Origin: a virus
Reading direction: 5' to 3' (one strand)
DNA length: 64,000 bases
IMG/VR virus record: IMGVR_UViG_3300020219_000012
Span: 36,343 to 100,342 of that record
Shown: one piece after another, positions 17,682 through 56,898 of the stretch
Layout of the letters: the number at the start of each line of letters is the position of its first letter
Position numbering within the stretch: position 1 is the first letter of the stretch
Translations under genes and position numbers: made by a program
The notes under the pieces: generated by a model
What the model was told of the DNA's origin: nothing
Seen by the model: the letters and a program-made list of their open reading frames with translations, nothing else
Database searches by the model: none

Positions 17682-17689
17682 CTTATGCC
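17682..17689 (-). promoter_or_regulatory. GGCATAAG element, copy 1
   Basis: Preceded by GCT, 42 nt upstream of the sliding-clamp start and directly after a terminator on the same strand. Likely a phage promoter -10-type element. Confidence 0.6.
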
Positions 17690-17693
17690 AGCT

Positions 17694-17732
17694 AAAAAAG
17701 TGACCTCTCCCCGCGTGGGGAGGGAGAGGTCC
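17694..17732 (-). terminator. Rho-independent terminator
   Basis: On the minus strand the stem GACCTCTCC/GGAGAGGTC is followed by AC and six T residues. It ends the unit from the right before the clamp gene. Bases 17733-17832 hold no convincing gene; a frame there ends exactly on the terminator. Confidence 0.82.
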
Positions 17733-17832
17733 ACGGCACAGGTGCGCCCCCACACACGACGCCAACATCAAATCCATCGCGTTCCACCGAAACGAAGGAT
17801 TCGATTATTGGATACCTGCTCCTCTCGTAACT

Positions 17833-17840
17833 CTTATGCC
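17833..17840 (-). promoter_or_regulatory. GGCATAAG element, copy 2
   Basis: Contains the TAA stop codon of the 17834-18298 gene (CTG GCA TAA G). Identical to copy 1 over GCTGGCATAAGA. No start codon with ribosome site follows before the terminator, so it may be a weak or non-promoter copy. Confidence 0.45.
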
Positions 17841-18298
17841 AGCAAAGAGGCGTCGATCGGCGTGCCGCGGGGCAGCTCGTCGATGACGGTCGGGTCAAGG
17901 AACTCAACATCCGCAAGGCCGCGGTCATCGACAACATCCCGGAACCGCAACGAGAACTCGATGTTCACGGTTGACGAGTGTCCGTTCGGGTGACAGACCC
18001 CGAGCCTGCAGCGCCCACTGGCCTCGTAGGTCTGGGCCTCACCGGCCTTGCCGCCTGTCGAGCTCGGCTGGGTCAGGACCTGGATCTTGTTGTTGGCGAT
18101 GAAGTAGCGGCAGCCACTGGGATGGCCGTCGCTCATCTTGGTGAGCGCCTTGCGCAGCGCACAGATCATCTTCTCGTTCGGCGTCAGCGTGGCCACGCGC
18201 TTCGCCTTGCGATCAAGGCGATGGTTGACGGTCGCCGGGATGATGTTGCTGGTCGGCGCCTTGCGTTGGGCGGCGAACATTTCTTTGCGGATATGCAT
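17834..18298 (-). CDS. Hypothetical protein
   Basis: 154 residues, basic N-terminus (RKEMFAAQRKAPTSN), a middle with GCRYFIANNKIQVL and CRLGVCHP, and an acidic C-terminal end. Cysteines at about 62, 97 and 101 could bind metal. Its stop codon is embedded in a GGCATAAG element. It follows the Fe-S nuclease gene by only 4 nt, so probably the same operon. Not recognised. Confidence 0.55.
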   Translation of the reverse strand: MHIRKEMFAAQRKAPTSNIIPATVNHRLDRKAKRVATLTPNEKMICALRKALTKMSDGHPSGCRYFIANNKIQVLTQPSSTGGKAGEAQTYEASGRCRLGVCHPNGHSSTVNIEFSLRFRDVVDDRGLADVEFLDPTVIDELPRGTPIDASLLA

Positions 18299-18302
18299 TG
18301 GC

Positions 18303-19478
18303 CTACTCTACCTCGCTTTCATCATCCTCAGCATCCCCCAGCCGATAGCCACGGAACTCGGTCTTGACCTTGGTCTTCTGGATCTGGGCGATGTCGGATT
18401 CGAGTCCCGGGTTGGCCCGAGTCGCGACCTTGAGGAACTTCTTGAGCTTGCGGGAGTCTATGCTGGCCACCTCCTGGATTTCATGGCCGTACTCCATCAG
18501 GACATCAAGCAGCTCCTGCATGTCCCAGACTGCCGACGCCTTGGATCGGTACCCCCAGCACCACTTGTCGCCGATAACGACGGAGTCGTTCTCTTTGACG
18601 TAGGCCTTGAGGCGGGCCTTGAGCTCCTTGCTGAGGGCGTCCATGACAGTGATCCGCTGGGCGGCGTCGATGGCCTGGTCTTGGCTGATGACCTGGGTGT
18701 TTGTGACACTCAGATCCTGCGACAGCGGGCAGTGCTGGATGACATCGCAGTACTGGCAGTGCTTGCCGGGGATCGGATCCCAGTTCGAGATCTCCAGGAT
18801 CTTCTGCTCCTTGAGCATCAGCGTCTGCTCAAAGAGCTGAAGGTCTTTGACGGTCCTCTTGGTCTCCGCGTAGAAGCCGTACCGCAGGTACCAGATCCTG
18901 GCCGTGTACTCCTCGATGTGAGGATACAGCTTGGATGCCAGCCAGCAGTACATGGTCAGCTGCTCATGGGCGTCCAGCTCGGCCTGGGTCATGACATGCG
19001 GCTGGCTCTTCCAGTCCGTGACCGTGCAGTGCTTCTTGTTAACATCAACGACGTCAAGAATGCCGCGGTAACTGGCGTTGTCCCACTCGGTATCATCGAA
19101 CGCCTCATCGAGGGCGACCTTCTCCTCCACGCCGTAGATGTGCTTTGAGATCTGATATCGCTCCGCCCACAGCCGAACCCAGGACATGATTTCGCCGATC
19201 TCGGCGAGGATGGTGTGCGGGGTGTGGCTGGCTACCGCGTCGGAGATCTGGTCCAGCGACAGGCTGCTGGGCTGGATCTGCGCCTCCTGGCAAAGGGAGA
19301 TGAGCTCCGCGATCGCCTCGTGACAGGCGGACCCGCGCTCGGCGGCTACTCGGATATAGCGATCGTCGACCTTGTCGATGTAGTGGAGTTTCAGATACCT
19401 GGGACAAGCGGCGTTGGTCAGAAAAGAGGGTGAAAGTTTCAGGGACAGTTCCTGCCCCAGGACCTTCAGCTTCTTCAT
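18303..19478 (-). CDS. Cas4/RecB-type PD-(D/E)XK nuclease with Fe-S cluster
   Basis: 391 residues. Motifs in order: an N-terminal cysteine (AACPRYLK, C25), a RGSACHEAI helix, YRGILDVVDV and TDWKSQ (the D...DxK active site), and a C-terminal HCQYCDVIQHCP cysteine set. One N-terminal plus three C-terminal cysteines around a PD-(D/E)XK core is the iron-sulfur nuclease arrangement of Cas4, AddB and Dna2. Likely trims DNA ends to make ssDNA for the adjacent Sak4-like protein, whose stop overlaps this start by 4 nt. The C-terminal ~120 residues are an extra helical part. Confidence 0.78.
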   Translation of the reverse strand: MKKLKVLGQELSLKLSPSFLTNAACPRYLKLHYIDKVDDRYIRVAAERGSACHEAIAELISLCQEAQIQPSSLSLDQISDAVASHTPHTILAEIGEIMSWVRLWAERYQISKHIYGVEEKVALDEAFDDTEWDNASYRGILDVVDVNKKHCTVTDWKSQPHVMTQAELDAHEQLTMYCWLASKLYPHIEEYTARIWYLRYGFYAETKRTVKDLQLFEQTLMLKEQKILEISNWDPIPGKHCQYCDVIQHCPLSQDLSVTNTQVISQDQAIDAAQRITVMDALSKELKARLKAYVKENDSVVIGDKWCWGYRSKASAVWDMQELLDVLMEYGHEIQEVASIDSRKLKKFLKVATRANPGLESDIAQIQKTKVKTEFRGYRLGDAEDDESEVE

Positions 19479-20482
19479 TGCGTGACTTCAGTCCCCGGCG
19501 GTAGCGCCGTCGTAACGGACTGGGTGACGGCCGCCGCCTTCGCAGCAGACTTGGCCCTCGCCGACTCCTCCTCCTTGACCTTGCCCTCGAGGATCTCGAT
19601 CAGCTTGGCGTCGACCGCGTACTTCTTGAGAGAGGCCAGGCGCTTTGCTTCTGGTGCGCCGAGCTTGTCGAACAACTCCTTGATGCGCGGGGTCGCCAGG
19701 CGCTCGCGCTCGAGCGGCGTGGGACCGTCTTCGCCTTCCGCGGCAACCTGCGCCAGGGGCTGGCGCATCACCTCAGGCTCGTTGGTGCCGTCCGTGAGCC
19801 AGTCGCGCAGGACCTTGGCGACCTGGGCACCCGGCTTCTCGATGTACTGACCGTCCAGATCGGAGCAGCGTGTCTTGGTGATCGACAGCGCATGGTCATT
19901 GTTCATGTCGCCGACGACATCGAACTCGTACTCAAGGCCATCCCGCTGAACCGGAGCCAGACCAATCTTCTTGGGAGCCGTCTTGCCAGTGCGCTCGTCC
20001 TTCTCCAGGACGTACTCGGTCTTGGTCCTCATCGTGGCGATGACGTGAGCGCTGGAGCGAAGGACGCCCTCCACCATGCTGTTGTGCTGCGGGGTAACGT
20101 CCCGCCAGGCGTTGAAGGAGCTGCCACTGTTCGAGCGCTTGGCCGAACGATCCACCTGCTCCAGGGCGCCATCCTTGCCGGTCCAGGCGTGCGACAGGGA
20201 GTCGATGACGATCACGTCATAGCCTGCCGCGTCAGCCGCCGAGATCGCCTCGACGTACTTGGCCGGAGCGAAGCTGGCGAGCTCGAGGACATCGAACTCA
20301 AACTTGCCAGCGTACTTGGAGGCCGAGCCGCGCTCCGTGTCGATGACGGCAACCCGGCCGCCGGGCACGAGGTTGCAGGCGATTGCCAAGGCGGAGTAGG
20401 TCTTGCCGCTGCCCGCGGGGCCGATGAGGGCGATGCGCAGGCGGGCCTGCTTCTTGGTGGCCTTAACGAAATTCAAGCTCAT
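19475..20482 (-). CDS. Sak4-like RecA-fold ATPase (phage recombinase)
   Basis: 335 residues. Walker A GPAGSGKT (20-27), IDTERGSASKY, and a hydrophobic strand VIVIDSLSHAW as Walker B; these are the signatures of the phage AAA_24/Sak4 single-strand annealing family. The C-terminal ~90 residues are Ala/Glu/Lys-rich and probably flexible. Would anneal or pair ssDNA in phage recombination with the nuclease and OB-fold proteins nearby. A GGCATAAG element lies 85 nt before the start. Confidence 0.78.
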   Translation of the reverse strand: MSLNFVKATKKQARLRIALIGPAGSGKTYSALAIACNLVPGGRVAVIDTERGSASKYAGKFEFDVLELASFAPAKYVEAISAADAAGYDVIVIDSLSHAWTGKDGALEQVDRSAKRSNSGSSFNAWRDVTPQHNSMVEGVLRSSAHVIATMRTKTEYVLEKDERTGKTAPKKIGLAPVQRDGLEYEFDVVGDMNNDHALSITKTRCSDLDGQYIEKPGAQVAKVLRDWLTDGTNEPEVMRQPLAQVAAEGEDGPTPLERERLATPRIKELFDKLGAPEAKRLASLKKYAVDAKLIEILEGKVKEEESARAKSAAKAAAVTQSVTTALPPGTEVTQ

Positions 20483-20566
20483 GAGTCAGATCCTTTACCG
20501 GAGTGATGCCGGGGTGAAACGAACAGGGGCGCCAGCAACATGCCGCGCCCCGTCTGTCCTAAGAAC

Positions 20567-20574
20567 CTTATGCC
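20567..20574 (-). promoter_or_regulatory. GGCATAAG element, copy 3
   Basis: Located 9 nt after the stop of the 59-residue gene and 85 nt before the Sak4-like start. Context CCGGCATAAGG. Placed to drive the recombination genes. Confidence 0.6.
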
Positions 20575-20583
20575 GGCGGTCTG

Positions 20584-20763
20584 TCACTGGGCAGCGATTG
20601 ACGCCTCCAGCTGAGCGATCTCCTCCGTCAGGGCCGTCGCCTCCGTCGCCTCGGAGGCCGTCTTCTCCAGGACGCCATCGAGGGTCGCCAGACGAGATCT
20701 GGCAATCAGCAGGGCGTCCTCCTGGGCGCCCCTGACGCTCTCCACCCCGTACTTCTCAATCAC
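20584..20763 (-). CDS. 59-residue coiled-coil protein
   Basis: GTG start overlapping the upstream stop (GTGA). A single continuous amphipathic helix, VIEKYGVESVRGAQ... ending EEIAQLEASIAAQ, with regular heptads. Its coupling to the gene before it supports expression. Function unknown. Confidence 0.55.
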   Translation of the reverse strand: MIEKYGVESVRGAQEDALLIARSRLATLDGVLEKTASEATEATALTEEIAQLEASIAAQ

Positions 20764-20951
20764 GAGCGCGTGTCCTGAATCTCCCTGGAGGGCTGGAAGA
20801 TGCCGAGCTTGCCGAACCAGGCGGACACCACCTTCGTCACGTTGAGGCCACCAACCACCTCGCCGTAGTGAGTGATCTCCATGACGACATCGCCGTTGGA
20901 CTTGATGGTCGGAGTGACCTGCGGGAGATCGAGCTTTTGCGGGTTGTTCAT
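20760..20951 (-). CDS. Small hypothetical protein
   Basis: 63 residues, mixed beta/helix (PTIKSNGDVVMEITHYGEVVGGLNV). The start overlaps the previous stop and the end overlaps the next start, so it is part of a tightly coupled unit. Not recognised. Confidence 0.55.
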   Translation of the reverse strand: MNNPQKLDLPQVTPTIKSNGDVVMEITHYGEVVGGLNVTKVVSAWFGKLGIFQPSREIQDTRS

Positions 20952-21262
20952 TTTCTGTATCCCCTTCCCTTTGCCATGAATCGCCTGTTCGGGTTCAACG
21001 GGTCGTAGCGCCCTTCTCGTGCTGCGTCCCTGTTTGCCGACGCGCCATGATCGAGGGCGCCGGCTGGATTGCTGTGAGAGATGATGTGAACCGCCTTGAG
21101 CATGCAGGGGACGTCGAAGACGTCAGGCTCGGCGTCGGTGCCATGATCGAGCGCCAGGCGTGGGACCATGCTCTCGCACGGCACCGGGTCGTTGACCTCT
21201 GCCATGGGGACGATCTTCTCGAAAACGTGCCCGTGCGGACATTCGAAATCGTAAAGCGGCAT
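20948..21262 (-). CDS. FmdB-type zinc-ribbon protein
   Basis: 104 residues. The N-terminus MPLYDFECPHGHVFEKIV is that of FmdB-family putative regulators, but the first CxxC is replaced by C-x-H-G-H and the second pair is reduced to a single Cys (VPCESM), so the metal site is altered. The C-terminal part (NRDAAREGRYDPLNP, KGRGYRK) is basic. Widely seen in phages without known function. Confidence 0.65.
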   Translation of the reverse strand: MPLYDFECPHGHVFEKIVPMAEVNDPVPCESMVPRLALDHGTDAEPDVFDVPCMLKAVHIISHSNPAGALDHGASANRDAAREGRYDPLNPNRRFMAKGRGYRK

Positions 21263-21447
21263 CAGCGAACCTTCTTGATCTTGAAGAGGTCTAGTCGGGC
21301 GTCCAGGGCATCCTGGACGAATCCCGAGAAGGTCATCCCGTTGTTGCTTTCGAGGAAGCTCTCGACTCGCTGCACTGTGTCAGCCGGAAGGCTGACGGTC
21401 TTACGAGCAAAGCCTCCTGCGTAGCCGAGGCTGCGGTGACGACCCAT
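21262..21447 (-). CDS. Ribbon-helix-helix DNA-binding protein
   Basis: 61 residues. After a basic N-terminus, KTVSLPADTVQRVESFLESN gives the beta strand and first helix, and MTFSGFVQDALDARLDL the second helix, of an Arc/CopG ribbon-helix-helix dimer. Likely a transcriptional repressor; a 13-bp inverted repeat in the promoter of the gene just upstream (21779-21791) is a possible operator. Confidence 0.72.
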   Translation of the reverse strand: MGRHRSLGYAGGFARKTVSLPADTVQRVESFLESNNGMTFSGFVQDALDARLDLFKIKKVR

Positions 21448-21759
21448 TTAGACGTCCCAGCCCTTGCCGCGAGCCACGCGCTTGGATGCGTAGAACCGGA
21501 GCATCTTGTCGCCCATCTGCTGGCCCACGTCGTAGGCCTTCTCAGCGAGCGCGTTGCGGACCTGGTAGCTCGGATGCTCGGCCCGGAAGGAGATAAAAAA
21601 CCGGGGCGGCACGCCGTTGGCGCTGACGTGCACGCCAGTAGCGGTGCAGCCCATGGACTCAATCTCCGCCTTCTGCTCGATGATGAGGGTGGTCAGTGCA
21701 TCGTCGACCACGAGCTCGGCGTCGCTGGTGAGGGGTAGGCCGGCAATCCTTGGCTCCAT
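21448..21759 (-). CDS. Hypothetical protein with own promoter
   Basis: 103 residues from the ATG at 21759; longer upstream readings run through the terminator. It has a beta-alpha fold with MGCTATGVHVSANGVPPRFF in the middle and a helical C-terminus. No ribosome site; a TTGACT-18-TACTCA promoter ends 8 nt before the start, so the mRNA is probably nearly leaderless. Followed immediately by the ribbon-helix-helix gene. Function unknown. Confidence 0.58.
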   Translation of the reverse strand: MEPRIAGLPLTSDAELVVDDALTTLIIEQKAEIESMGCTATGVHVSANGVPPRFFISFRAEHPSYQVRNALAEKAYDVGQQMGDKMLRFYASKRVARGKGWDV

Positions 21760-21767
21760 GGAAAGTA

Positions 21768-21797
21768 TGAGTACTTCGTAAGACGGTCTTAAGTCAA
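21768..21797 (-). promoter_or_regulatory. Sigma-70-like promoter with internal inverted repeat
   Basis: TTGACT (21797-21792), 18-nt spacer, TACTCA (21773-21768). The spacer contains TAAGAC-G-GTCTTA (21779-21791), a perfect 6+6 inverted repeat well placed for a repressor, perhaps the ribbon-helix-helix protein encoded downstream. Confidence 0.58.
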
Positions 21798-21809
21798 CGG
21801 CGTTGAGGC

Positions 21810-21838
21810 AAAAAAAATAGGCCCCGGTCAAGGGGCCT
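21810..21838 (-). terminator. Rho-independent terminator
   Basis: On the minus strand AGGCCCC TTGACC-type loop GGGGCCT is followed by ATTTTTTTT. It lies directly downstream of the hyperacidic gene and upstream of the TTGACT promoter, separating two units. Confidence 0.85.
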
Positions 21839-21861
21839 GCTTTTCCGATGGGGCTGGAGGG

Positions 21862-22005
21862 TTACTCCGCGTCCGCCTTCTCGTCGTCGGAGTCGTCGCC
21901 GGACTCCTCGGACTCCTCGTCCTCGTCCTCGTCTTCGTCCTCGGACTCAGACTCCGCCTCGGGCTCGTCCTTCTCGGTCTCGGTCTCGGTCTCGTCGTCG
22001 GGCAT
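21862..22005 (-). CDS. Hyperacidic 47-residue protein
   Basis: ATG at 22005 with GAGGAG 6 nt upstream; stop just before a terminator. 30 of 47 residues are Asp or Glu and only two are Lys, with no hydrophobic core (MPDDETETETEKDE...). Such polyacidic proteins can be DNA mimics that block restriction enzymes or other DNA-binding host proteins, or histone-like chaperone tails; which applies here is unknown. Ribosome site, position and terminator support a real gene. Confidence 0.65.
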   Translation of the reverse strand: MPDDETETETEKDEPEAESESEDEDEDEDEESEESGDDSDDEKADAE

Positions 22006-22014
22006 GGTATCTCC

Positions 22015-22407
22015 TCAGGGTTTCGCGGAAGCCGAAGTGGCGTCCTTGGTTGCGGTCTTCGGCTTGGAAGCCGTACTGCCGGGATTATCACCGAGGTTTG
22101 CCTTGGCGTCATCCCCCTTTGCCTCGTCCTTCGGGACGTCGTCCAGACGAATCTGGCTGAGCAGTGCCTGGACTCGGGTGACGCACTTCGCGCAGAGGTC
22201 GACGAAGTGGATCTTGGTGGTGTCAGTGAGGAGGGACCCCTCGACGTAGACCCTGGGGGCGGTCGGGGTTGCGACCAGTCCGCCGTTGAACGCGGCGGTC
22301 CCGAGGGCTGCCGGGGCGGAGGGCTCATCGGATGGAGGCTGCGAATCCCCCTCGATGACCTTGTCGCAGCGATCGCAGATGATCTGAGTGACTTTCTTAA
22401 CGGCCAT
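22015..22407 (-). CDS. Zinc-binding protein with disordered tail
   Basis: 130 residues. ICDRCDKVIEG near residue 10 and LCAKCVTRVQ near residue 72 give two CxxC pairs, probably one zinc site in a split ribbon. The last ~40 residues are Lys/Asp/Ala/Ser-rich and disordered. Overlaps the preceding small gene by 11 nt. Function unknown. Confidence 0.62.
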   Translation of the reverse strand: MAVKKVTQIICDRCDKVIEGDSQPPSDEPSAPAALGTAAFNGGLVATPTAPRVYVEGSLLTDTTKIHFVDLCAKCVTRVQALLSQIRLDDVPKDEAKGDDAKANLGDNPGSTASKPKTATKDATSASAKP

Positions 22408-22585
22408 TTTTCTTTCCTCGAATCGGTTGCGGTGTGTTGTCCCAGACGTAAACGATCTGGGTGTCGCACTGTCGACATAGCGTGTTCGACAGGGCTGTAT
22501 TTTCTACGCGCCCCCCGCGGGCGTCGCGGCACTCGTGGGGGACGGGGAGGAAGGGGCGGATGCTAGTACGCAGGACCCTGGGCAT
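22397..22585 (-). CDS. Small zinc-type protein
   Basis: 62 residues, ATG at 22585. PHECRDARGG and TLCRQCDTQIVYVW supply H/C and CxxC ligands for a possible zinc site; the C-terminus is basic. Coupled by overlap to the next gene. Function unknown. Confidence 0.55.
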   Translation of the reverse strand: MPRVLRTSIRPFLPVPHECRDARGGRVENTALSNTLCRQCDTQIVYVWDNTPQPIRGKKNGR

Positions 22586-22588
22586 GAC

Positions 22589-23080: not shown

Positions 23081-23082
23081 GG

Positions 23083-23286: not shown

Positions 23287-23292
23287 GGTTAG

Positions 23293-23321
23293 TGGGTATC
23301 ATCGAATCAGGGTTCAGTCAA
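23293..23321 (-). promoter_or_regulatory. Sigma-70-like promoter for RHH gene
   Basis: TTGACT (23321-23316), 17-nt spacer, TACCCA (23298-23293), 6 nt before the ATG at 23286. Very like the 21768-21797 promoter (TTGACT/TACTCA). Confidence 0.58.
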
Positions 23322-23434: not shown

Positions 23435-23447
23435 AGATCTCCTCGGC

Positions 23448-24975: not shown

Positions 24976-24991
24976 GCCCGGCCTCCTCTGG

Positions 24992-25020: not shown

Positions 25021-25082
25021 CTCTGGCCTGGGCGCAGGGCGGAATCTCCCGCTTCTGCCATGAACTCTAGAAGGAGATCCCC

Positions 25083-25556: not shown

Positions 25557-25564
25557 GCATTGTC

Positions 25565-25572
25565 CTTATGCC
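25565..25572 (-). promoter_or_regulatory. GGCATAAG element, copy 4
   Basis: Context GCTGGCATAAGG, as in copies 1 and 2. It lies between the two + genes, so on the minus strand it faces antisense to the 25083-25481 gene and then the leftward genes from 24975. It may mark the old promoter of that leftward unit, into which the + gene was inserted. Confidence 0.45.
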
Positions 25573-25606: not shown

Positions 25607-26203
25607 ATGTCAACTCTCGACCGCTACGCCGTCCTCAGCCTGCAGGTCAAGGACAGGTATCCGCGATTCTCCGTGGTCGAGCGGGATAAGTCCTGGCTCC
25701 GCCCCATCTTCTGGCTGCTCCAGAAGATCACCCGGCAGGACTACTCCGGCTTCACCACCACCATCTTCTCCACCATGTACGTCGGATCGGACTGGGCCAC
25801 CAGCTCGACCACGTCACGCTACCGGCTGCTTCGTCACGAGATGCAGCACATCAAGCAGTTCCACAACTGGCCCCTGGGCAGGCGGGCCTGGCCGGTAAAC
25901 CACCTCCTGATGTCGCTGGTCTACCTGCTCCTGCTTCCGGTGATCTGGACTCTGCGGGCCAAGTTCGAGCGAGAGGGCTACACCCAGACCCTGCTGGTCG
26001 AGTACGAGCTCACCGGCCCCATTGCGGATACCCGGATGGAGGAGAACGCCCGCTGGCTGGCAGAGACGTTCGGAGGCTCCGCGTACCTGTACATGTGGAG
26101 GAAGAAGGCTGCTTACGCCTGGGCGATGGAAACCCAGCGCAAGATCAACGCGGGGGAGATTCGGAACCAGCAGGATCGGGTAGAGGTACCCCGAGCTGCA
26201 TAG
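25607..26203 (+). CDS. Membrane protein with HExxH metallopeptidase-type motif
   Basis: 198 residues. RLLRHEMQHIKQF (about residues 77-86) contains HEMQH, the HExxH zinc-protease signature, followed by a hydrophobic segment LLMSLVYLLLLPVIWTL and then an acidic/helical part with EYELTG and ENARWLAE that could supply a third ligand. Resembles a small membrane-bound zinc peptidase. No ribosome site: CAGAAT lies 6 nt before the ATG, so a leaderless mRNA is possible. Overlaps the convergent minus gene by 59 nt. Confidence 0.6.
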   Translation: MSTLDRYAVLSLQVKDRYPRFSVVERDKSWLRPIFWLLQKITRQDYSGFTTTIFSTMYVGSDWATSSTTSRYRLLRHEMQHIKQFHNWPLGRRAWPVNHLLMSLVYLLLLPVIWTLRAKFEREGYTQTLLVEYELTGPIADTRMEENARWLAETFGGSAYLYMWRKKAAYAWAMETQRKINAGEIRNQQDRVEVPRAA

Positions 26204-26820: not shown

Positions 26821-27033
26821 TTAATTTGTGCGACGGTGGAAGATCCGATAGACGCTCTCGCCCAGGCGCCGGCACTCCACCTGACTGGAGACGTACAGGC
26901 CCTCCAGAACCATCCGAACCTGGTCCGCAGCAAGGCCTGTAGCTTGCGCCACGGCCGCCGCCGTCACACCATTGGCGTGATTGCGGAGGGCGCCTAGCAC
27001 CTGGTTCTGAATTGACACATTCGACACGGTCAC
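26821..27033 (-). CDS. Winged-helix-type small DNA-binding protein
   Basis: 70 residues from a GTG overlapping the methyltransferase stop (GTGA). VLGALRNHANGVTAAAVAQA and TGLAADQVRMVLEGLYVSSQ give three helices and then a wing (VECRRLGESVYRI), the layout of a winged helix. Possibly a local regulator coupled to the methyltransferase. Confidence 0.6.
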   Translation of the reverse strand: MTVSNVSIQNQVLGALRNHANGVTAAAVAQATGLAADQVRMVLEGLYVSSQVECRRLGESVYRIFHRRTN

Positions 27034-27767
27034 GTGTTTTCCCCTGTCGGCACCCCAGCAGTCAAGGTACCTGTCGCTGAACTGACATCGAGCAGACGGC
27101 TTCTCGCCAAGTCGACGGCGACGGGAGACAGGTCGTTGCCGGCGAAGGTGCGTCCATTCCGGAGGGCGGCCACGCCGCACGAGCCTGACCCCATGAAGGG
27201 GTCGCAGACCAGCTCACCCGGAGCCGAACTCTGCTTGATCAGCACCTCATTGACCGCTACCGGCTTCTCGGTCGGATAGCCGTTGCGAACGCGGGGCACC
27301 TTGATGACGTCGGCCACGCCGAGGTTGTTAAGTCTTCGCTTGCCCTTCTCGAAGAACAAGATGAGCTCGTATCGGCACCGGTAGTGGTAGCCCATCCCAA
27401 TCCCCATCTTGTCCCACACGATCGGCTTCCAGAACTTGAAGCCCACCGCCTCGGCCAACGGCTTGGCGACGAACATCGTTTCCTGATCACAGAACATGTA
27501 GAAGTGGGCGTTCTTCTGGAGGGCCGCGTAGACCAACACGAATAGCTCGGTGAACCGGGAATTCGGGAAGATCTCGAACCAGTCATTGCTCGATGACTTG
27601 CTGTGCTTGAGGCGGGTCGTGGTCCCCCGCTTGCGGTGCTTCTCCAGCGACTCATAGGGCGGGTCGGTGATGAGCAGATCGACGCTGCCATCCGGGATGG
27701 ACCGCAGGTAATCGGCCGCGTCGCCCTGGCCAAGATTGAAATCGGTCACGGTCGACTGACTCCCCAT
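27030..27767 (-). CDS. DNA adenine/N4 methyltransferase (beta-class)
   Basis: 245 residues. DPPY (motif IV, about 36-39) comes before the AdoMet-binding motif I region DPFMGSGSCGVAALRNGR, the permuted order of beta-class N6_N4 methyltransferases; DPPY favours N6-adenine. The target-recognition part is the basic centre (KHRKRGTTTRLKHSKSSS). No restriction partner is nearby, so it is an orphan enzyme, probably protecting phage DNA from host restriction. Confidence 0.85.
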   Translation of the reverse strand: MGSQSTVTDFNLGQGDAADYLRSIPDGSVDLLITDPPYESLEKHRKRGTTTRLKHSKSSSNDWFEIFPNSRFTELFVLVYAALQKNAHFYMFCDQETMFVAKPLAEAVGFKFWKPIVWDKMGIGMGYHYRCRYELILFFEKGKRRLNNLGVADVIKVPRVRNGYPTEKPVAVNEVLIKQSSAPGELVCDPFMGSGSCGVAALRNGRTFAGNDLSPVAVDLARSRLLDVSSATGTLTAGVPTGENT

Positions 27768-28030: not shown

Positions 28031-28050
28031 TGGCCACCTTCCTTGTATTC

Positions 28051-28058
28051 CTTATGCC
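28051..28058 (-). promoter_or_regulatory. GGCATAAG element, copy 5
   Basis: Located 1 nt after the helicase stop codon and 21 nt before the TTG start at 28030. Context AGCGGCATAAGG. Confidence 0.6.
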
Positions 28059-28059: not shown

Positions 28060-30261
28060 CTAGAGTGCCCCCAGGCTTTTCAGGAACGGTTCGATGTCAT
28101 GCAGCGTTCTCGATAGCCGGATGGGCGGGATGCTTCCGAGAAACTGGTAGCTGTAGCCGGAGTCGGCGACCCGTCGATCCAGGCAGGCAATGATGCCGAC
28201 GTCGCGAATCGACCGAAGTAGGCGGCCGGTTCGCTGCTTGAACTTCGTGATCGCCATGGGCATGCGGTACCCCTTGAACACGTCCACCACGTTGGCGTTC
28301 TTGTCCTTGGCCAAGATCTCCGCGTTCCGCATCTCGAGGCCCACCAGGACCGGATCGTTGGGTGGTGCAAAGCTGAGCTTTTCCAGGATGACGCAGGTGC
28401 AGGCCTCCCCCTGGATGTCGACGCCCTCGGCAAACGACTCCGTCCCCAGTAACACCGAGTTTACACTGGACCGGAACAGGTCCTGGAGATCTCGATTCGT
28501 GCCCTCACCCTGCACGAGTATCTCGTAGGGCAGGCGTGCCCGCAGGTACCCGGCAGCCCGACGCATCGACTTGTGACTCGTGAACAGAACCAGCGTCCGC
28601 CCCTTGACGATGCGGATGATCGCCTCCATGTGCTCGAGGGCCGCCGCGTTGTAGGCCGCGTTGTCGTCCTTGGACTTGGACTCGTACATCGGCATCGTGG
28701 AGGGCACCACCAGCAGGGACTGCTGATGCCAGTTGAACGGAGACGGGACGACCAGCTCGGACACCCCCTTGAGATCTCGCATGCCCATCTCGCGCCGGAC
28801 GTGGTCAAAGTCTGACCCGCGAGGGTTCTTGATGGCGAGCGTGGCGGAGACCTGGATCACCGGCGAGACCTTGTCGAAGATCTCCTCTCGCATGAACCGT
28901 CCGACCAGCAAGGCCTTCGCCTTGAGCTTCACCTCGGCTGCCCCATCCTCCGACGACTCTCGCTGCGCGAAGTAGACGAGCGATGGAATCCCTCGCGTCC
29001 GGAACTTGTTTAGGCGGTCCGTAACATCCGCGCATCGGTCAGCGAGCTTCCTGAGTCGAGCAGCCATCACGGCGTGCTCGGCATCCTTGGCCTTCATGAT
29101 GGGCTTGCCGGTAGCAACCTTCGGCGCAATCCGACTAGACGTGGCCATGTAGAGGCCAGCGATGTCCAACAGGGCCGCCTCTAGCCCCTCCGACTTCAGC
29201 ATGTCGCCAGGCCCGAACACCACCAGCTCGGCGCCCAGGCGTCGGTCCAGGTCATCCCAGAGGTCGTTGAGAAGTTGCACGGCGTTCGATCTGGCCGAGA
29301 GCGCAGCCTTGCCAAGGCCGAGGTTTTCAAGATCGTGGAGCCCGGACAGGCATCGGTGGACAGCTGACCAGCTGATCGTCGCATCCTCGCCAAGGTGGTC
29401 GCGGGCGATCTCCGGGGCATGGTGCGCCTCATCCATGATGAGAACGTCGAACACCGGCAGGATGCCGTTGTTGTCCTGGCGCAGCTTCTTGTTATAGATC
29501 TCCAGGTCCCACTCTCTCCCCTCCTCCTCGCACTTGAGCTTGGCCTTGCGCAGGCGCGCAGCTTCGAAGGTCAGGTGGCGGTATAGGAGGTGGTAGTTGG
29601 TGACGACGATATGGGCCGCCTTGGCGCGGACCTTGGATGCTGCCAAGAAGCACCCGTCGGCCGAACCGCACTCCCTGGGCCCGTCGCATTCCTCACTGGT
29701 GGTCGAGAACGAGCGCCAGATCTTGTTGGTCGGCCCTGGGCTCTCCTCGCGATCTCCGTCCTTGGTGGTGTCGGCCCAGTCGCGAACCGCGTCGACCATC
29801 TCCTCGTTGCCGTCCCGGACGCCTTCCCACCTGCCGCGGGCGTAGTCGCGGGCGCACAGGTATGACGAGGCGCCCTTGCGCACCGTGAATGAGAACTTCC
29901 ATCCGGTCGCCTTGCGCAGTTCTTCTAGATCCTTGTTTACGATCTGCGACTGCAGGGTCTTGTTGGCGGTGACGATGCAGACCCGCTTGCTGGAGTGGAT
30001 GGCGTGATAGGCGGCCGGCACCGAGTAGGCGAACGACTTGCCCGTCCCCGTCGGGCCCTCGGCGATGGCGTGGGTGCCATTGCGGATGGCCTGATCGATC
30101 GATCGGGCCAGCGCCACCTGCCCGGGGCGAGGCTGATATCCGGAGACCAGCTTCGAGAGGTAGCCCCTTGGGCCAAAGACATCCTCGATGTAGTCCCCGG
30201 ACTCGTCGACCCTGCCGCCATCCAGGAGCCGCAACGTCACATTTTTAGACGGCTTCGACAT
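28060..30261 (-). CDS. DinG/XPD-type superfamily 2 helicase
   Basis: 733 residues from the ATG at 30261. Walker A EGPTGTGKS (about 68-76), a cysteine set between motifs Ia and II (SSYLCARDYARGR; ECDGPRECGSADGCF) that would hold a 4Fe-4S cluster, DEAH box MDEAHHAPE, and the late motif QRTGRLLRS. This is the XPD/DinG family of 5'-3' Fe-S helicases. Likely unwinds forks, R-loops or recombination intermediates. The start overlaps the preceding zinc protein gene by 25 nt. Confidence 0.85.
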   Translation of the reverse strand: MSKPSKNVTLRLLDGGRVDESGDYIEDVFGPRGYLSKLVSGYQPRPGQVALARSIDQAIRNGTHAIAEGPTGTGKSFAYSVPAAYHAIHSSKRVCIVTANKTLQSQIVNKDLEELRKATGWKFSFTVRKGASSYLCARDYARGRWEGVRDGNEEMVDAVRDWADTTKDGDREESPGPTNKIWRSFSTTSEECDGPRECGSADGCFLAASKVRAKAAHIVVTNYHLLYRHLTFEAARLRKAKLKCEEEGREWDLEIYNKKLRQDNNGILPVFDVLIMDEAHHAPEIARDHLGEDATISWSAVHRCLSGLHDLENLGLGKAALSARSNAVQLLNDLWDDLDRRLGAELVVFGPGDMLKSEGLEAALLDIAGLYMATSSRIAPKVATGKPIMKAKDAEHAVMAARLRKLADRCADVTDRLNKFRTRGIPSLVYFAQRESSEDGAAEVKLKAKALLVGRFMREEIFDKVSPVIQVSATLAIKNPRGSDFDHVRREMGMRDLKGVSELVVPSPFNWHQQSLLVVPSTMPMYESKSKDDNAAYNAAALEHMEAIIRIVKGRTLVLFTSHKSMRRAAGYLRARLPYEILVQGEGTNRDLQDLFRSSVNSVLLGTESFAEGVDIQGEACTCVILEKLSFAPPNDPVLVGLEMRNAEILAKDKNANVVDVFKGYRMPMAITKFKQRTGRLLRSIRDVGIIACLDRRVADSGYSYQFLGSIPPIRLSRTLHDIEPFLKSLGAL

Positions 30262-52400: not shown

Positions 52401-52873
52401 TGGAACCCCTTCTGCCCCGAGTACCAGCACTGGATGTGCGACTGCTTGACCCCAAGGGTCATGAACCAGGAAACCACCTTCCGCGCGTCTGCCAGGCTGG
52501 ACCGCACTGAACGCATGAGCCGTTCCTCCTGGTCGCCGGACTCGTCTTCCTTGGGCTTACAGTCAAAGTCGAAAAATACGCCGTTGTAGTGCATCTGGGA
52601 CTCGGCGAAGTCCTCGTGCGAGGGCGTGGGCACGGAACCCCGTGAGACCTCCTGTGCTGCTTCCTGCGCGGCCTTACGCTCTGCCTCCAGGGTTGAGACG
52701 GCGTCCTTGAATCGTTGCACTGTGGTGAAGCACTGGACGTTGCCGGAGGGCACGACGATCCGGCTCCGGATGTCGGAGATCTTGTACCGGTGCCACACGG
52801 TGAATCGGCCTGGAACCTTGGCCAAGCCATAAGTGCCATCCACGTAGATATAGGTTTTCGAGAATTCGCTCAA
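49499..52873 (-). CDS. Primase-helicase fusion: AEP primase plus MCM-like AAA+ ATPase
   Basis: 1124 residues. N-terminal archaeo-eukaryotic primase signatures: FFDFDC (D102, D104), YSGQKGFHVIV (about 151-161) and SVYSRARQWRIPNSSH. A Cys-rich middle (C389, C406, C412; CGVDNGKYCDDC near 468-479) may hold a PriL-like or zinc OB domain. The C-terminal AAA+ part has GDTGTGKST (706-714), AGEGASRTGL, LLVIDEF (764-770), FLSNP (809-813) and GSDLRRVD (837-844), the layout of MCM helicases. Probably both primes and unwinds at the origin. It starts beside a 430-nt AT-rich region. Confidence 0.75.
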   Translation of the reverse strand: MSEFSKTYIYVDGTYGLAKVPGRFTVWHRYKISDIRSRIVVPSGNVQCFTTVQRFKDAVSTLEAERKAAQEAAQEVSRGSVPTPSHEDFAESQMHYNGVFFDFDCKPKEDESGDQEERLMRSVRSSLADARKVVSWFMTLGVKQSHIQCWYSGQKGFHVIVRPEVFGITPHRHLTAIVKMAVLQLADYLDIPTLDRSVYSRARQWRIPNSSHAGSNLFKYELTCRELLDWDAKAIRTRAKEPRTDFPSEEALPVSHVWSPHEYSNIEPLDEAVTWWRQFHDLYEVRLDMDRLRPRAKISRPLTGDSDFPVCMKDMLENGMKPTGPNRNKVILPMVGFMVDAGIDKQEANHLMANWTKKHFPNPTELPGRLLNAASVVNTGYAGSLHFSCRMIRANGGKTGEEKVACVGADKCSWIKNVSDQDPAEVPTVHLSDASRGCYLGTKVRTPVQVAAKATAPFGIPLRGKVTCGVDNGKYCDDCALGKNGANGKLQFVFSAEDAKVLELIGVNNNEKTSHVRSFCRIQPKCFKNRITYDEQTNLEEVQLIPMVDYAQIYMEEQTSVRPDAPAEEEGSTTKAVKHVVQRAFFMGHGLQPNRKYMVEASVFNFPKDQRVCLLFDKAEPAQNDVDQFVMTADHYESLKLFRPREGQSVEDKLQEIHADLTANVHQIGGRMDLSIAVDLCYHSVIGFKLDGKWVRKGWWELLVVGDTGTGKSTMIDRMIQHYGLGEMTAGEGASRTGLLFALVQINSQWTVQWGKIPQNDRRLLVIDEFSGIPMEEVQKLTQVRSDGRAIAQGTGVGHETWARTRMIFLSNPREGQGQLSDYNSGIRAVMKMFKEGSDLRRVDLAVVAEKSEVSSEMINRRWTSSALKHNYTADLCHSLLLWVWSREPHHVEFSEEAEERIAFHAREMGEVYDCDVPLAYKSDLRLKIARIAASVAARLFSTDKDARKVLVTIEHVNFAADFMDWNYRKPAMAYFEYARKHKDVNNLTDERRSAIKKMLMSFDEAEVVIDLLNQADFITKPTLTDILNLPKDDMDRLWRFLNQKGLIYRHHKIWRKSQAFNAYLKELSKATTNFRGNLGEAFASGGLAAVARSEVLEPLDDFYAGPMPVFEDEKPRSGKKPPF

Positions 52874-53303
52874 GCTGGCTCCTGAAAGGGAAGACGGAGG
52901 TGGCGGCAGGGTCCTTTTGCCGGCTCGGGACCTGTGGCCTTTTGACCGTGGAATGAACTCAATTCACCCCACCCAATCTTCTGAGACCGAAATCCCGAAA
53001 AAGAATCGTGAACTTGGTTCAATGAAAAAGAGGGATCAGAGAGAATAAGTAGAACTCATAGAAAAAGAGAAGAAAGAATATTTTAATAGAAGTCATATAT
53101 TTATATATGTCCCTTTTTTCTTACCAGTGTTCAGGTACTTAGGGATCTTCTTCTTAAGAAAGTAGTGAATAGCGACATGTAGGGGAAGATGACATCCATA
53201 ATGACCTTTGAGGATATGTATGGTCAATGTAGTCAGAAAAAGCTAAAAAACGTAATGGCCCTTACATTGTGAAGTCCTCATAAGTCGCATCACGTTTTGT
53301 CAC
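52874..53303 (-). other. AT-rich non-coding region, candidate replication origin
   Basis: About 430 nt without a plausible gene and, from about 52980, markedly AT-rich against the GC-rich surroundings. It holds two direct GAAAAAGAG repeats (53024, 53061), the near-palindrome CATATA-TTTA-TATATG (53094-53109), TTCTTAAGAA and several poly-A/T runs. It lies directly upstream of the primase-helicase gene, whose promoter must also be here. Origin assignment is inference. Confidence 0.5.
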
Positions 53304-53912
53304 TTAGCCGACTTTATCCACAGGCAAAGGGGTCGTGATCAGACCCGGATCTTGCCCCCCTTCCATGCCGATCAGGATGCGTGCAAGGCGAGCTGGGATC
53401 ATCCGGTTGCGAGACGCCAAGAGCTCGAGGGTCAGGTCTTCTGACGCGGCGCGGTAATACTGATTGCGAAGGGAGGTTCGCAGCTCAGGGGTGGTCTGCT
53501 TGCAGTAGTTCTCCCAGGCGTGAATCAGGCTCAGGTGGTCCTTGGCCACGCAGTGCTTCGTCCCGGCCGCCACGCACCGCGGGACCAACTTGACTGGGCT
53601 CTCTCCGAAGTTGGCCGGATCGGTGCGGGGGATGAGTCCGAAGTGGTACTCATAGGCAAAGCTCTGCACGGTCCGCATCCTGCCGTTGGAGTAGAAGTAG
53701 CCCCAGCCGCTGCGGTCGATCTTGCCACCCCACACCTCGCAGCGAGCCAGCTCGCGGAGGTAGGGGTCGTGGTGCTTGACCACGGTCTCGGGGACGACCT
53801 GCTTTTCAAACTTGTCCCAGTTCCGGATGATGTCGGGCGCGGGCAGGTAGCGGTCCGAGAACGGGCGCGCCGGGGCGAGGCGCCGGACCGGCGTGATCTT
53901 GAACTCCCTCAT
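53304..53912 (-). CDS. HNH endonuclease (HNH_3-type)
   Basis: 202 residues. CEVWGGKIDRSGWGYFYSNG then RTVQSFAYEYHFGLIP and KLVPRCVAAGTKHCVAKDHL reproduce the W-G-x-x-D-x-x-G-Y-G, A-Y-x-x-x-x-G and C...C...H pattern of HNH_3 homing-type nucleases. C-terminal ~70 residues are helical and basic, perhaps DNA-recognising. Freestanding beside the AT-rich candidate origin. Confidence 0.72.
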   Translation of the reverse strand: MREFKITPVRRLAPARPFSDRYLPAPDIIRNWDKFEKQVVPETVVKHHDPYLRELARCEVWGGKIDRSGWGYFYSNGRMRTVQSFAYEYHFGLIPRTDPANFGESPVKLVPRCVAAGTKHCVAKDHLSLIHAWENYCKQTTPELRTSLRNQYYRAASEDLTLELLASRNRMIPARLARILIGMEGGQDPGLITTPLPVDKVG

Positions 53913-54388
53913 GCGGCACCAAAGACCGCCCCGTACTTCTGGCAGACCTCGAGCGGCGACTCCTCGAACTGGGCGTAGAAGGCGCGGGTGGCGGCTGCGG
54001 CCGCGAGGCCCTTGGGGTATCGGCAGCCGACCTGGAGGACGAGGTTGACCCCGTCGTCCAGCTTGCGGAACAGCCGCAAGGCGGCGACCCCTTCCTCGTT
54101 GAACAGGGGCGCGCCGTCACCGCCGAACAGCTTGACGGTCTCGCCGGTGTCCATGACGACCAAGATCTGCTCGCGCAGGTAGTCGAAGCGCCAGCCGGCA
54201 TCGACCAGGGCCTTGGCCGCGCCGGCCCAGGCGTCTTCGGATTCAGGCTCGGCCAGGCAAACGATCAGCACTTCACTCGCGCGGGCTCCTTGCATGTTCC
54301 AGAACGGGTGATAGAGCGACAGCTGGTGTTGCTTGAGGACGGGCATGACGTGTTCGTCAAGCCAGGCCTTCTTGTCGAAGTCGGTCAT
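53909..54388 (-). CDS. Hypothetical alpha/beta protein
   Basis: 159 residues from an ATG overlapping the previous stop (ATGA). Regular strands and helices (SEVLIVCLAEPESEDAW; ILVVMDTGETVKLFGGDG). No catalytic motif. Coupled to the HNH gene by ATGA. Not recognised. Confidence 0.55.
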   Translation of the reverse strand: MTDFDKKAWLDEHVMPVLKQHQLSLYHPFWNMQGARASEVLIVCLAEPESEDAWAGAAKALVDAGWRFDYLREQILVVMDTGETVKLFGGDGAPLFNEEGVAALRLFRKLDDGVNLVLQVGCRYPKGLAAAAATRAFYAQFEESPLEVCQKYGAVFGAA

Positions 54389-54708
54389 GTGGACTCCGGG
54401 TTGTAGGGGATTTGTTCGCCGAGGCCGGTGGTCTGGATCCAGGGCTGGTGGCCCGCCAGCACGGCCTCGAGATAGGCGGCGATGCGAGCATTGCCCGTAC
54501 GCTGCGGGTAGTGGACGACGCCGAAGTAGTGGAGAGACCGAACCGCGCGATAGGCGCAACCCACGACGCAGAGCACCTTCTCGGGCGCCGGTGGATGAGT
54601 GACGCAGCCAGTGCGGGTTTTGGCGTCGAGCTCGGCGGTCTCGAGCTCGGCAACCTGGCTGGCATGGGCGAGCGCATTCTTCAAATCCGACGTGGTCCAA
54701 GCCGTCAT
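54385..54708 (-). CDS. Hypothetical protein
   Basis: 107 residues, started at the ATG at 54708 because AAGGAGG lies 10 nt upstream; an ATG 24 nt earlier is also possible. Helical N-terminus (SDLKNALAHASQVAELETAE) with two Cys in CVVGCAYRAV. Bases 54709-54861 contain an inverted repeat but no gene. Confidence 0.52.
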   Translation of the reverse strand: MTAWTTSDLKNALAHASQVAELETAELDAKTRTGCVTHPPAPEKVLCVVGCAYRAVRSLHYFGVVHYPQRTGNARIAAYLEAVLAGHQPWIQTTGLGEQIPYNPEST

Positions 54709-54782
54709 GGGCACGTAGCCTCCTTGGCTCATGGTTGGCCGGCGACCCTGCGCCTCGCCACGAGGGGCCGTCAACCAAACGC

Positions 54783-54807
54783 TTCCGGAAATCTCTAACC
54801 TCCGGAA
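54783..54807. repeat. Short inverted repeat in intergenic spacer
   Basis: TTCCGGA and TCCGGAA separated by 11 nt, between the genes ending at 54862 and starting at 54708. No T tract; may be an operator or RNA hairpin. Confidence 0.4.
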
Positions 54808-54861
54808 TGCTCGTGACGTGTCTTGTGGTGCGACGAGGAGAGCTCCACAACAGCTTGTGGT

Positions 54862-55296
54862 TCACCTGGGATGCAGGTGCGCCTTCTCCGATGCTGTCTG
54901 TTCTGCGTTGTCGAGGATCACCTGCGCGGCGTCTTCGCTGACGTTGAGCGACTGGGCGCCGCTGCGAATCAGTTCCTTTATCTGAGACTCATCCATGATG
55001 CCGATGCAGAGCGAGAGCATGTCGGCGAACTTCACGACGTCCGATGCGGAGCCGGCCGCGTTGTACATGTCGATCTCGAGGGCGCAGATCTTCTTCATGA
55101 GCGACGGAGTTATGTGACCCGCGAGCAGGACGTCGCTGAGCAGCGGGCCGAGGAGCAACGGCTCACTGGCCACGGTTGGCGCATAGCACCTGATGAGTCG
55201 CAGGTGCTCCTGCGCGAGTCCGGGCTTGAACTCGTTGAGCTTGGGGAAGCGGGCGGTGACAGAGAGAAGGATGTCTAGATCGGTCCGTTTTGGCAT
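54862..55296 (-). CDS. Hypothetical helical protein after repeat spacer
   Basis: 144 residues. All-helical (RTDLDILLSVTARFPKLNEF; EDAAQVILDNAEQTASEKAH). The start is 21 nt after a GGCATAAG element, with AAAAGGA as ribosome site. Lies just downstream of the 5-nt-periodic spacer. Not recognised. Confidence 0.55.
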   Translation of the reverse strand: MPKRTDLDILLSVTARFPKLNEFKPGLAQEHLRLIRCYAPTVASEPLLLGPLLSDVLLAGHITPSLMKKICALEIDMYNAAGSASDVVKFADMLSLCIGIMDESQIKELIRSGAQSLNVSEDAAQVILDNAEQTASEKAHLHPR

Positions 55297-55316
55297 GTGG
55301 ATTCCTTTTCAGAATC

Positions 55317-55324
55317 CTTATGCC
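55317..55324 (-). promoter_or_regulatory. GGCATAAG element, copy 6
   Basis: At the end of the 5-nt-periodic spacer (in phase with it), 21 nt before the ATG at 55296. Context TTAGGCATAAGG. Confidence 0.6.
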
Positions 55325-55339
55325 TAAGAAAAGCGGGGC

Positions 55340-55531
55340 AGCCCGCCAGTCCTCGCCGGCCACGCCCAACCTCGCCAGCCCTGCCTTGCCGCGCCCGACC
55401 GAACCTAACCCGACCTAACCCCGCCAGCCTGACCGTGCCATGCCATTCCCAGCGCAGCCTGACCGCGCCGAACCTAACCCTGCCAGCCTATCCTCATCAT
55501 GCCTCACACCGCCGAGCCTCGCCTTGCCATC
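55340..55531 (-). repeat. Degenerate 5-nt periodic repeat (GGNNN on minus strand)
   Basis: About 190 nt between two genes in which CC on the + strand (GG on the transcribed strand) recurs almost exactly every 5 nt, roughly 35 times; for example CC at 55399, 404, 409, 414, 419, 424, then 433, 438, 443, 448, and 458, 463, 468, 473, 478, 483. The three other bases vary. A 5-nt period does not suit a coding frame, and no gene is seen. Confidence 0.75.
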
Positions 55532-55537
55532 TGAAAA

Positions 55538-56011
55538 CTACGCGGCTTGCTGTGCTTCTGCGATGAACTGCGTGACGTTGGCCAAGAGATTGTCGAGCTC
55601 TCCCTCGAGCCCGAGCACCTGAGCGATGGCCCGGCTCCGCGTCACGATGCCCTCGATTCGAGTGAATTCGCGTTGCAGGGTTTCGAGCGCACGTTGCCGA
55701 TCGTTCACCAGGCTTACTGTCTGCACGTACCCCGCTTCACGTTGATCCGACGGATCATGCACATAGGCCACCACCGAAACGGTCCTACGGTCCACGGTGG
55801 CGTTGATCTTCACGGAGCGAATGAGGGTTCGCGCCTGGTCGAGTCGCCTCTCGTGCGCCGCCCGGGTGTCATCCCAGGTGAACGCATCATGCAGCGGGCT
55901 AGTGACCGGACGAGCATCCTCGATGACCAACTCAGGAACGAGTCGTCCTCCCCCCAGCTGGGTCAACTCCGCTAGACGTTTGGCAATCGCTTCCCTTTGG
56001 GCGAGCGTCAT
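55538..56011 (-). CDS. Conserved-type phage hypothetical protein
   Basis: 157 residues, GGAGG ribosome site 8 nt before ATG. Helical ends and a beta centre (RTVSVVAYVHDPSDQ, YVQTVSLVNDRQRALETLQ). Follows the 276-residue gene closely in the same operon. Function unknown; the C-terminal helix (LDNLLANVTQFIAEAQ) is typical of small phage proteins. Confidence 0.55.
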   Translation of the reverse strand: MTLAQREAIAKRLAELTQLGGGRLVPELVIEDARPVTSPLHDAFTWDDTRAAHERRLDQARTLIRSVKINATVDRRTVSVVAYVHDPSDQREAGYVQTVSLVNDRQRALETLQREFTRIEGIVTRSRAIAQVLGLEGELDNLLANVTQFIAEAQQAA

Positions 56012-56014
56012 GGA

Positions 56015-56845
56015 TTAGGCCTCCACTCCGTTGCTGGTGATTTCCTGCACCTTGGTCTTGGCCCGACCGTTGGCCGTGGCCGGTGCAAACGACCGGTGCT
56101 TACCGACTGCGTCGAGGTACCAGGTGTAGAGCTCCTCGGTCTCTTCGTTGGAGAAGTTCGGCTCCTTCATGCCAGCGAGCTGCACATCGCGCCCACCCTC
56201 CGCCACGATGCGCTGATAGTCGGGGTCATCTGAGCCGGCGATATTGAACAGCCCGTAGTTGCCGGCGCCCTTCTCGTTGCGATAGTCGCCGATGCCGATG
56301 TACATGCCAGCTGCCGCCAGGAGGTTGGCCACCGACTGCAGCTGGAGCTGCGGCATCACGTACGACACTGTGATCGAGCACGCCCACTCCTGCATGTAGC
56401 AGCGGGTCCGCACATCCGGCGCCCGGTTCATGCCGGCCTGCCGGACGATCCGCATATCGAGCTGGGGTATGCCGAAGATGTCGATGCGATCACCGACCAC
56501 CCACAGCATGCGACCGACCTCGGCCTTGCTGACGCCCGGCAGGTCGAGCGCCGCTGCCCGCATCGCTCCGCGGAACGCGGATGAGAGGTGCTGCACGAAC
56601 GTCGGCCCCTCCTTGTTGTTGAAGTAGATGGAGCTCTGGTACTCCTCGAGCGGGCGGTGCTTGAGCGAGGACTTCTTGTCGGCCTCGGTCTTGCGCCCCA
56701 TCGGCAGGAGCAACTCCTGCTTGGTCTTGTTCGACAGGCAGTTGTGCAGCATGGGCGTCGTGCCCACGAGATGGAACGTAGCCTTCCCGCGCTCGACGTT
56801 GATGATCTGAACTTCGCCCGACTTTTCGTTCGCCTTGGTCGCCAT
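56015..56845 (-). CDS. Widely distributed phage protein of unknown function
   Basis: 276 residues from ATG 56845; upstream in-frame codons run through a terminator and a tRNA-like remnant and are ignored. FHLVGTTPMLHN near residue 25, KQELLLPMGRKT, a central FGIPQLDMRIVRQAGMNRAP, RTRCYMQEW and GIGDYRNEKGAGNYGLF are the conserved pieces of a protein family I have seen in many phages. The glycine-rich loop recalls RAMP-like folds but this is not established. Driven by a GGCATAAG element 46 nt upstream. Confidence 0.62.
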   Translation of the reverse strand: MATKANEKSGEVQIINVERGKATFHLVGTTPMLHNCLSNKTKQELLLPMGRKTEADKKSSLKHRPLEEYQSSIYFNNKEGPTFVQHLSSAFRGAMRAAALDLPGVSKAEVGRMLWVVGDRIDIFGIPQLDMRIVRQAGMNRAPDVRTRCYMQEWACSITVSYVMPQLQLQSVANLLAAAGMYIGIGDYRNEKGAGNYGLFNIAGSDDPDYQRIVAEGGRDVQLAGMKEPNFSNEETEELYTWYLDAVGKHRSFAPATANGRAKTKVQEITSNGVEA

Positions 56846-56890
56846 TTTGTTTCTCCAGTGAATGTGTGGGAGCGTTATTGCTCTATTCCA

Positions 56891-56898
56891 CTTATGCC
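56891..56898 (-). promoter_or_regulatory. GGCATAAG element, copy 7
   Basis: Context CCAGGCATAAGT, 46 nt before the ATG at 56845 and shortly after a terminator on the same strand. Confidence 0.6.

Follow-up and report, generated by a model that had tools for sequence, protein, structure and literature searches.

The 64,000-nucleotide stretch studied here (the window, positions 36343-100342 of the IMG/VR phage contig IMGVR_UViG_3300020219_000012, which has 100,342 bases) raises the question of what an octamer, GGCATAAG, does at gene boundaries on one strand of a phage genome, and which RNA polymerase would read it. Comparison with related phages indicates that the octamer almost certainly functions as a promoter. 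We consider it probable that the phage's own RNA polymerase uses this promoter, that a phage sigma-like protein selects it, and that it fires the replication-side genes.

Distribution of the octamer

Seven exact copies of GGCATAAG are present in the window (starting at 17682, 17833, 20567, 25565, 28051, 55317, and 56891), all on the minus strand and none on the plus strand, exactly as the original prediction had reported. The chance expectation is 0.75 copies, and none of 100 shuffled sequences reaches seven, the highest count being four. The longer sequence GCTGGCATAAG, said to enclose the octamer three times, does so at 17682, 17833, and 25565. In the whole source contig, the octamer occurs 10 times on the minus strand and never on the plus strand, and it is the first-ranked over-represented 8-mer (10 observed, 0.36 expected). 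Words that differ from it by one base are not enriched (27 observed versus 27.5 expected), and the signal is therefore the exact word. Among degenerate octamers, GGCACAAG (14:2 by strand, and found, for example, adjoining the polymerase gene of the relative G004) seems to be the one frequent working variant.

Close relatives were recruited with the major head protein (3602..4495, plus strand; phrog_2522, 1.5e-15); the Sak4-like protein failed as bait. Seven were found at 91-95% head-protein identity, and GGCATAAG is confined to one strand in each of them (5, 9, 5, 9, 11, 5, and 3 copies). The last of these contigs repeats sites of another contig and was left out of the counts, so that the search of the whole contig and its relatives, which had been proposed as a check, gives 54 sites on one strand and none on the other in seven close contigs including that of the window. 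The octamer is also the first-ranked over-represented 8-mer in the relatives alone (44 versus 2.2 expected; 44:0 by strand). The earlier observation is confirmed, and it is stronger than was stated there. Nearly all 54 sites are intergenic or reach into the last codon of the gene upstream, in genomes that are 86-91% coding. By-eye comparison shows that the sites keep their positions beside orthologous genes: upstream of the single-stranded DNA-binding protein (SSB) gene in 5 of 5 cases, upstream of the sliding clamp in 5 of 6, at the end of the helicase gene in 5 of 5, and after a conserved 217-aa gene, ahead of the site at contig position 28194, in 6 of 6. The bases that flank the conserved sites are mostly near random. 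The contig of one near relative (head protein 91% identical) lies inside an Acidobacteriota metagenome-assembled genome (MAG), which gives a weak hint at the host.

Promoter geometry in close and distant relatives

When the 54 sites of the close clade are aligned on the octamer, octamer positions 14-15 are a pyrimidine-purine (YR) step in 46 of them, compared with 1-18 of 54 at the other tabulated positions (9 to 31). The +1 position was therefore placed to put CATAAG at exactly -12 to -7; the octamer then spans -14 to -7, and the YR initiator, present at all 10 sites of the window's contig, lies at exactly -1/+1. Across the 54 sites, T is nearly absent from +1 to +9 and enriched at -20 and -18 upstream of the octamer, and a weak GAnCAC element lies at -32 to -27 with fixed spacing and a likelihood above that of shuffled controls. 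The original statement that the sites share no -35 box thus holds for the few copies in the window, but not for the larger set, in which this weak element is fixed.

Three distant relatives (head protein 46-51% identical, 36-39% G+C) over-use GGTATAAG, with strand biases of 25:6, 23:4, and 8:3. In the two larger ones, the initiator accompanies GGYATAAG at 39 of 52 sites and the T-rich stretch at -20 to -17 recurs; the third is not clear. Salmonella phage Arash encodes a homologous head protein, and GGTATAAG is its top 8-mer (30 copies on the minus strand, 1 on the plus strand), with the initiator in the same geometry at 29 of 30 sites. By eye, the minus-strand sites lie at gene boundaries of the Arash annotation. 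Relatives of the window phage's RNA polymerase are found in at least 253 IMG/VR contigs, from the best matches of which we took 50 with the polymerase as the sole criterion. In these contigs, GGYATAAG occurs 223 times antisense to the polymerase gene and 57 times sense, versus 79 and 85 for a reversed-pattern control; 38 contigs lean antisense and 7 lean sense. The initiator is at the predicted place in 62 of 74 antisense sites in six of the 50 contigs. A -10 element at a fixed distance from a purine start, as in bacterial sigma-type promoters, is thus seen in three sets of sites (46/54, 29/30, and 62/74), with G at -7 in all and with neither the TATAAT (T at -7) nor the TTGACA at -35 of housekeeping sigma-70 promoters. 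The fixed initiator distance, the gene-boundary placement, and the strand exclusivity bear out the earlier description of a promoter-like sequence with a single dominant -10-type element.

The candidate reader and its rivals

The window phage encodes a fused beta-beta' RNA polymerase of 2066 aa, located outside the window at contig positions 5305-11505. Rpb2 domains 3 and 6 are followed by Rpb1 domains 1, 2, 4, and 5 (Rpb2_6 1e-46, Rpb1_5 9e-26), and these beta and beta' domains together with the NADFDGD catalytic motif place the enzyme in the multisubunit type; the best match among solved structures is a PDB beta' subunit (9e-109). The beta' clamp-helix region is the docking site of sigma, and this region of the phage enzyme aligns with its cellular counterpart. 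With the profile used, one such gene is found per close relative. The polymerase is also a single chain in G002, G004, G005, G006, G017, and G029, and in Arash it is split into two genes, gp206 and gp216. A 20 kb contig (IMGVR_UViG_3300015360_000249) carries a polymerase 100% identical to that of the window phage. In G000 and G005, a divergent octamer is found some 20-27 nt from the polymerase start codon, with GGCACAAG holding the place in G004, and therefore the octamer promoter region overlaps the polymerase start. A simple pattern search found no sigma-70-like promoter ahead of the polymerase gene, and no conserved promoter motif stood out on the structural strand. A single-subunit T7-type polymerase gave no PF00940 match, a weak negative since control genomes gave no match either.

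In G005 and G002, the structural arm encodes a divergent sigma-70-like protein, here called sigma-II, at a distance of about 20 kb from the portal gene; this protein is also present in G033, G010, G017, G029, and Arash. Sigma-II scores to the sigma-factor family phrog_351 and aligns with sigma factors over its full length, its predicted fold matches sigma factors, and Pfam region 3 is matched at 9e-9 in Arash and at 6.8e-4, below the cut-off, in G005. A match was found in 18 of the 24 larger polymerase contigs, and all 17 strong matches are on the polymerase strand. All lineages whose contigs reach the place encode the fused polymerase (split in Arash) and a sigma-70-like protein, and apart from sigma-II no protein with similarity to regions 2 to 4 was found to be common to the element-bearing lineages. 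The lone plus-strand GGTATAAG of Arash (11588) lies just ahead of gp9-gp10, where gp10 is the sigma-II homologue, and autoregulation is possible.

Canonical sigma region 2 was found in no member of the close clade, and the three distant relatives carry canonical sigma factors of 271-272 aa near the matching junction. A small protein in the clamp operon (14678..15130, minus strand), conserved in the close clade, has four conserved Cys and a sigma-70 region 4 helix-turn-helix (PF04545 5e-11, alignment) with no region 2. It lies near the place of the distant relatives' full sigma factor and may be a remnant or an auxiliary factor; as the sole reader it was rejected for having no region 2-like part. 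The Zn-ribbon protein at 15732-16244 was rejected as a hidden sigma factor (low-confidence model, no match), and comparison of the other conserved unknown proteins with solved structures gave nothing informative.

We propose that GGCATAAG, or GGYATAAG in the wider group, forms positions -14 to -7 of the phage polymerase's promoter. Sigma-II would dock on the retained beta' clamp helices of the fused polymerase and would read and melt the octamer, and RNA would begin seven bases further on, at the YR step. We take the phage polymerase with sigma-II as the probable reader because sigma-II is the one protein resembling regions 2 to 4 that the element-bearing lineages were found to share and because the element tracks the polymerase. 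The original suggestion of a phage factor agrees with the conservation of the element over phages of 36-68% G+C and its co-occurrence with a phage RNA polymerase and a sigma-like protein. The octamer promoters would fire only the replication-side strand, with the clamp, SSB, Sak4-like, nuclease, methyltransferase, and small genes. We infer an early or middle class from these genes and from those served in Arash, which include primase/RNase H and helicase. The polymerase and sigma-II genes lie in the structural arm, which would be transcribed from something else.

Several observations weigh against this proposal. In none of the members tested does sigma-II reach the Pfam cut-off for region 2, it does not keep the canonical region 2 tryptophans, and the alignment behind its structural model included canonical sigma factors, with low overall TM-scores. 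The window's contig and several relatives end before the sigma-II position, so that sigma-II of the window phage is predicted from the relatives. Arash and the distant relatives carry a second, more canonical sigma factor, and the G at -7 is unlike sigma-70. Octamer bias is small or missing in some polymerase contigs (G055, G059, and G072), and G010 shows no clear initiator on its major strand (3/10). A 12.8 kb MAG contig of a close relative has no octamer, with 0.17 expected by chance and the polymerase not searched there.

The octamer promoter could instead be read by the host core enzyme with a phage sigma factor (sigma-II or the canonical one of the distant relatives), or by a host sigma factor with the region 4 zinc protein, which we liken to T4 middle/late switching. 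The conservation of the zinc protein in the close clade and the canonical sigma factors of the three distant relatives would agree with this, as would the resemblance of GGTATAAG to an extended -10 and the weak -32 element, which could be a region 4 or activator site. Nevertheless, we regard host-core reading as unlikely, although it deserves serious consideration: the close clade keeps the octamer without a canonical region 2 sigma factor, the sequence hardly varies among phages that range from 36 to 68% G+C, and in the 50 contigs the element goes with the phage polymerase. The ordinary host holoenzyme, acting with no phage factor, is a quite improbable reader, since a G at -7 and a C at -12 suit sigma-70 poorly, a fixed -35 element is absent outside the close clade, and a near-identical word recurs in phages of very different composition, one of them a Salmonella phage; these points outweigh the -12 to -7 geometry and YR start, which are as in sigma-70 promoters, and the nearness of GGTATAAG to an extended -10. 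Several copies overlap stop codons or lie near Shine-Dalgarno sequences, as might be expected of an RNA processing or translation signal, or of a site bound by a protein of replication, packaging, or recombination, but the start-site signature at one fixed distance in all three sets of sites, the conserved upstream positions, and the orientation toward downstream genes fit a promoter best and make such a non-promoter role very improbable. A chance or compositional word, with which the lack of enrichment of one-mismatch words would agree, is hardly conceivable, being already refuted by the count in the relatives, with the exact word the top 8-mer in two independent data sets and its strand exclusivity complete.

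Reading by the phage polymerase with sigma-II may extend beyond the close clade. We lean, with some reserve, toward the view that a large group of tailed phages runs fully viral sigma-dependent transcription, in which a fused beta-beta' polymerase and a divergent sigma-70-like factor would use GGYATAAG-N5-YR promoters to express replication-side genes. If true, such phages would possess a holoenzyme that is viral but built on the bacterial plan, with promoter rules fixed across very different hosts.

Genes at the octamers and other signals

The YR initiator is present at each of the seven minus-strand sites in the window. Two copies precede the clamp operon: that at 17682..17689 (predicted +1 at 17675) directly follows a terminator, and that at 17833..17840 (predicted +1 at 17826) overlaps the TAA stop codon of the gene at 17834-18298. 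Such a stop codon of the upstream gene lies inside 2 of the 10 contig octamers, the other being at contig position 28194. The sliding clamp (DNA polymerase III beta-like) is encoded at 16255..17640 on the minus strand (phrog_947 2.4e-14; PF02767 3.6e-5, below the cut-off). The octamer at 20567..20574 (predicted +1 at 20560) would serve the Sak4-like AAA ATPase, a recombination protein (19475..20482, minus strand; phrog_1366 8e-90, phrog_124 2e-11), and the PD-(D/E)XK exonuclease (18303..19478, minus strand; PF12705 7e-20). The octamer at 28051..28058 (predicted +1 at 28044) directly follows the helicase stop codon, the same place as in G001-G004, and would serve a small open reading frame and a DNA methyltransferase (27030..27767, minus strand; PF01555 4e-30). 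The remaining assigned copies, at 55317..55324 (predicted +1 at 55310) and, after a terminator, at 56891..56898 (predicted +1 at 56884), would serve the genes at 54862-55296 and 56015-56845, respectively. The copy at 25565..25572 (predicted +1 at 25558) occupies a divergent gap next to a rightward gene that is conserved (25607-26203), and no well-supported leftward gene follows it directly. The original assignment of sites to leftward units stands for the clamp, Sak4-like, and methyltransferase units, and the terminators noted before the first and seventh copies are present. The three further copies outside the window, at contig positions 5278, 13538, and 28194, lie ahead of leftward genes that break up the structural arm, which otherwise runs rightward; one of these genes encodes SSB.

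A second strand-specific word, TTTTTTAG(C), is found on the minus strand of the window, for example just upstream of 17689. It is distributed 33:1 by strand in the close clade, its Arash counterpart TTTTTAGC is distributed 14:0, and both often follow hairpins; these words are terminators with a fixed AGC tail. At about 12.6 kb in the window, on the minus strand, TTGACG-N17-TAGGTT-like sequences follow such a T-run before the polymerase-exonuclease region. They are kept in the relatives and are possible host-type early promoters. TAGACT about 6 nt before an ATG follows a T-run at early-strand contig position 72632, and also in G004, G005, and G006, an arrangement that suggests a leaderless transcript.

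Relation to known promoters and phage polymerases

The octamer resembles the sigma-70 extended -10 element in its position at -14 to -7, in the A at -11, and in the YR start 7 nt downstream, but it differs in being near-invariant, with G at -7, C or T at -12, and no consensus -35, and in being tied to a phage polymerase. The T4 late promoter is TATAAATA, with the factors gp55, gp33, and gp45. The likeness to it drawn in the original prediction is positional only, namely a single dominant phage-specific element around -10; the octamer has another sequence, the phage here encodes its own polymerase, and the genes served include clamp, SSB, Sak4-like, nuclease, and methyltransferase genes rather than structural or late genes, the structural strand being without octamers.

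In the jumbo phages phiKZ and AR9, several genes encode the split beta and beta', the late motifs are TATG or AACA-(6N)-UA/G, and the AR9 specificity factor gp226 does not resemble sigma in sequence (PMC7598289); group 1 jumbo phages with multisubunit polymerases yielded no sigma factor (PMC7824862). The window phage shares with phiKZ and AR9 a phage polymerase of the multisubunit type, a short conserved promoter near the start, and, as proposed, its own specificity factor, but its beta and beta' are fused in a single 2066 aa chain and its candidate factor appears to be a recognisable sigma relative. The metagenomic tailed phages named mReC have beta and beta' recognisable with cellular models (Weinheimer and Aylward 2020, PMC7481178), as is the case here. 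Their marker families, head PF07068 and terminase PF03237 (PMC7481178), are unmatched here, with only a weak PF05065 match for the head and PF05876 for the terminase; the text of that paper contains neither 'sigma' nor 'promoter'. The crAss-like phages also have beta and beta' in one chain, but no sequence homology of their RNA polymerase with cellular beta/beta' models is detectable (PMC7481178), whereas the polymerase here matches bacterial beta' at 9e-109.

Our literature search found no description of GGCATAAG or GGTATAAG as a phage promoter and nothing relevant on Arash. The proposed promoter would allow operon structure to be predicted from an 8-mer in many uncultured phages, and Arash, a cultured phage, allows direct testing. 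A compact fused polymerase with its own sigma factor would be of use in orthogonal expression and as a model for the evolution of sigma recognition. Cell-related phage polymerases are already known from jumbo phages and metagenomes; this work adds a candidate promoter together with a candidate specificity factor for a lineage with a fused polymerase.

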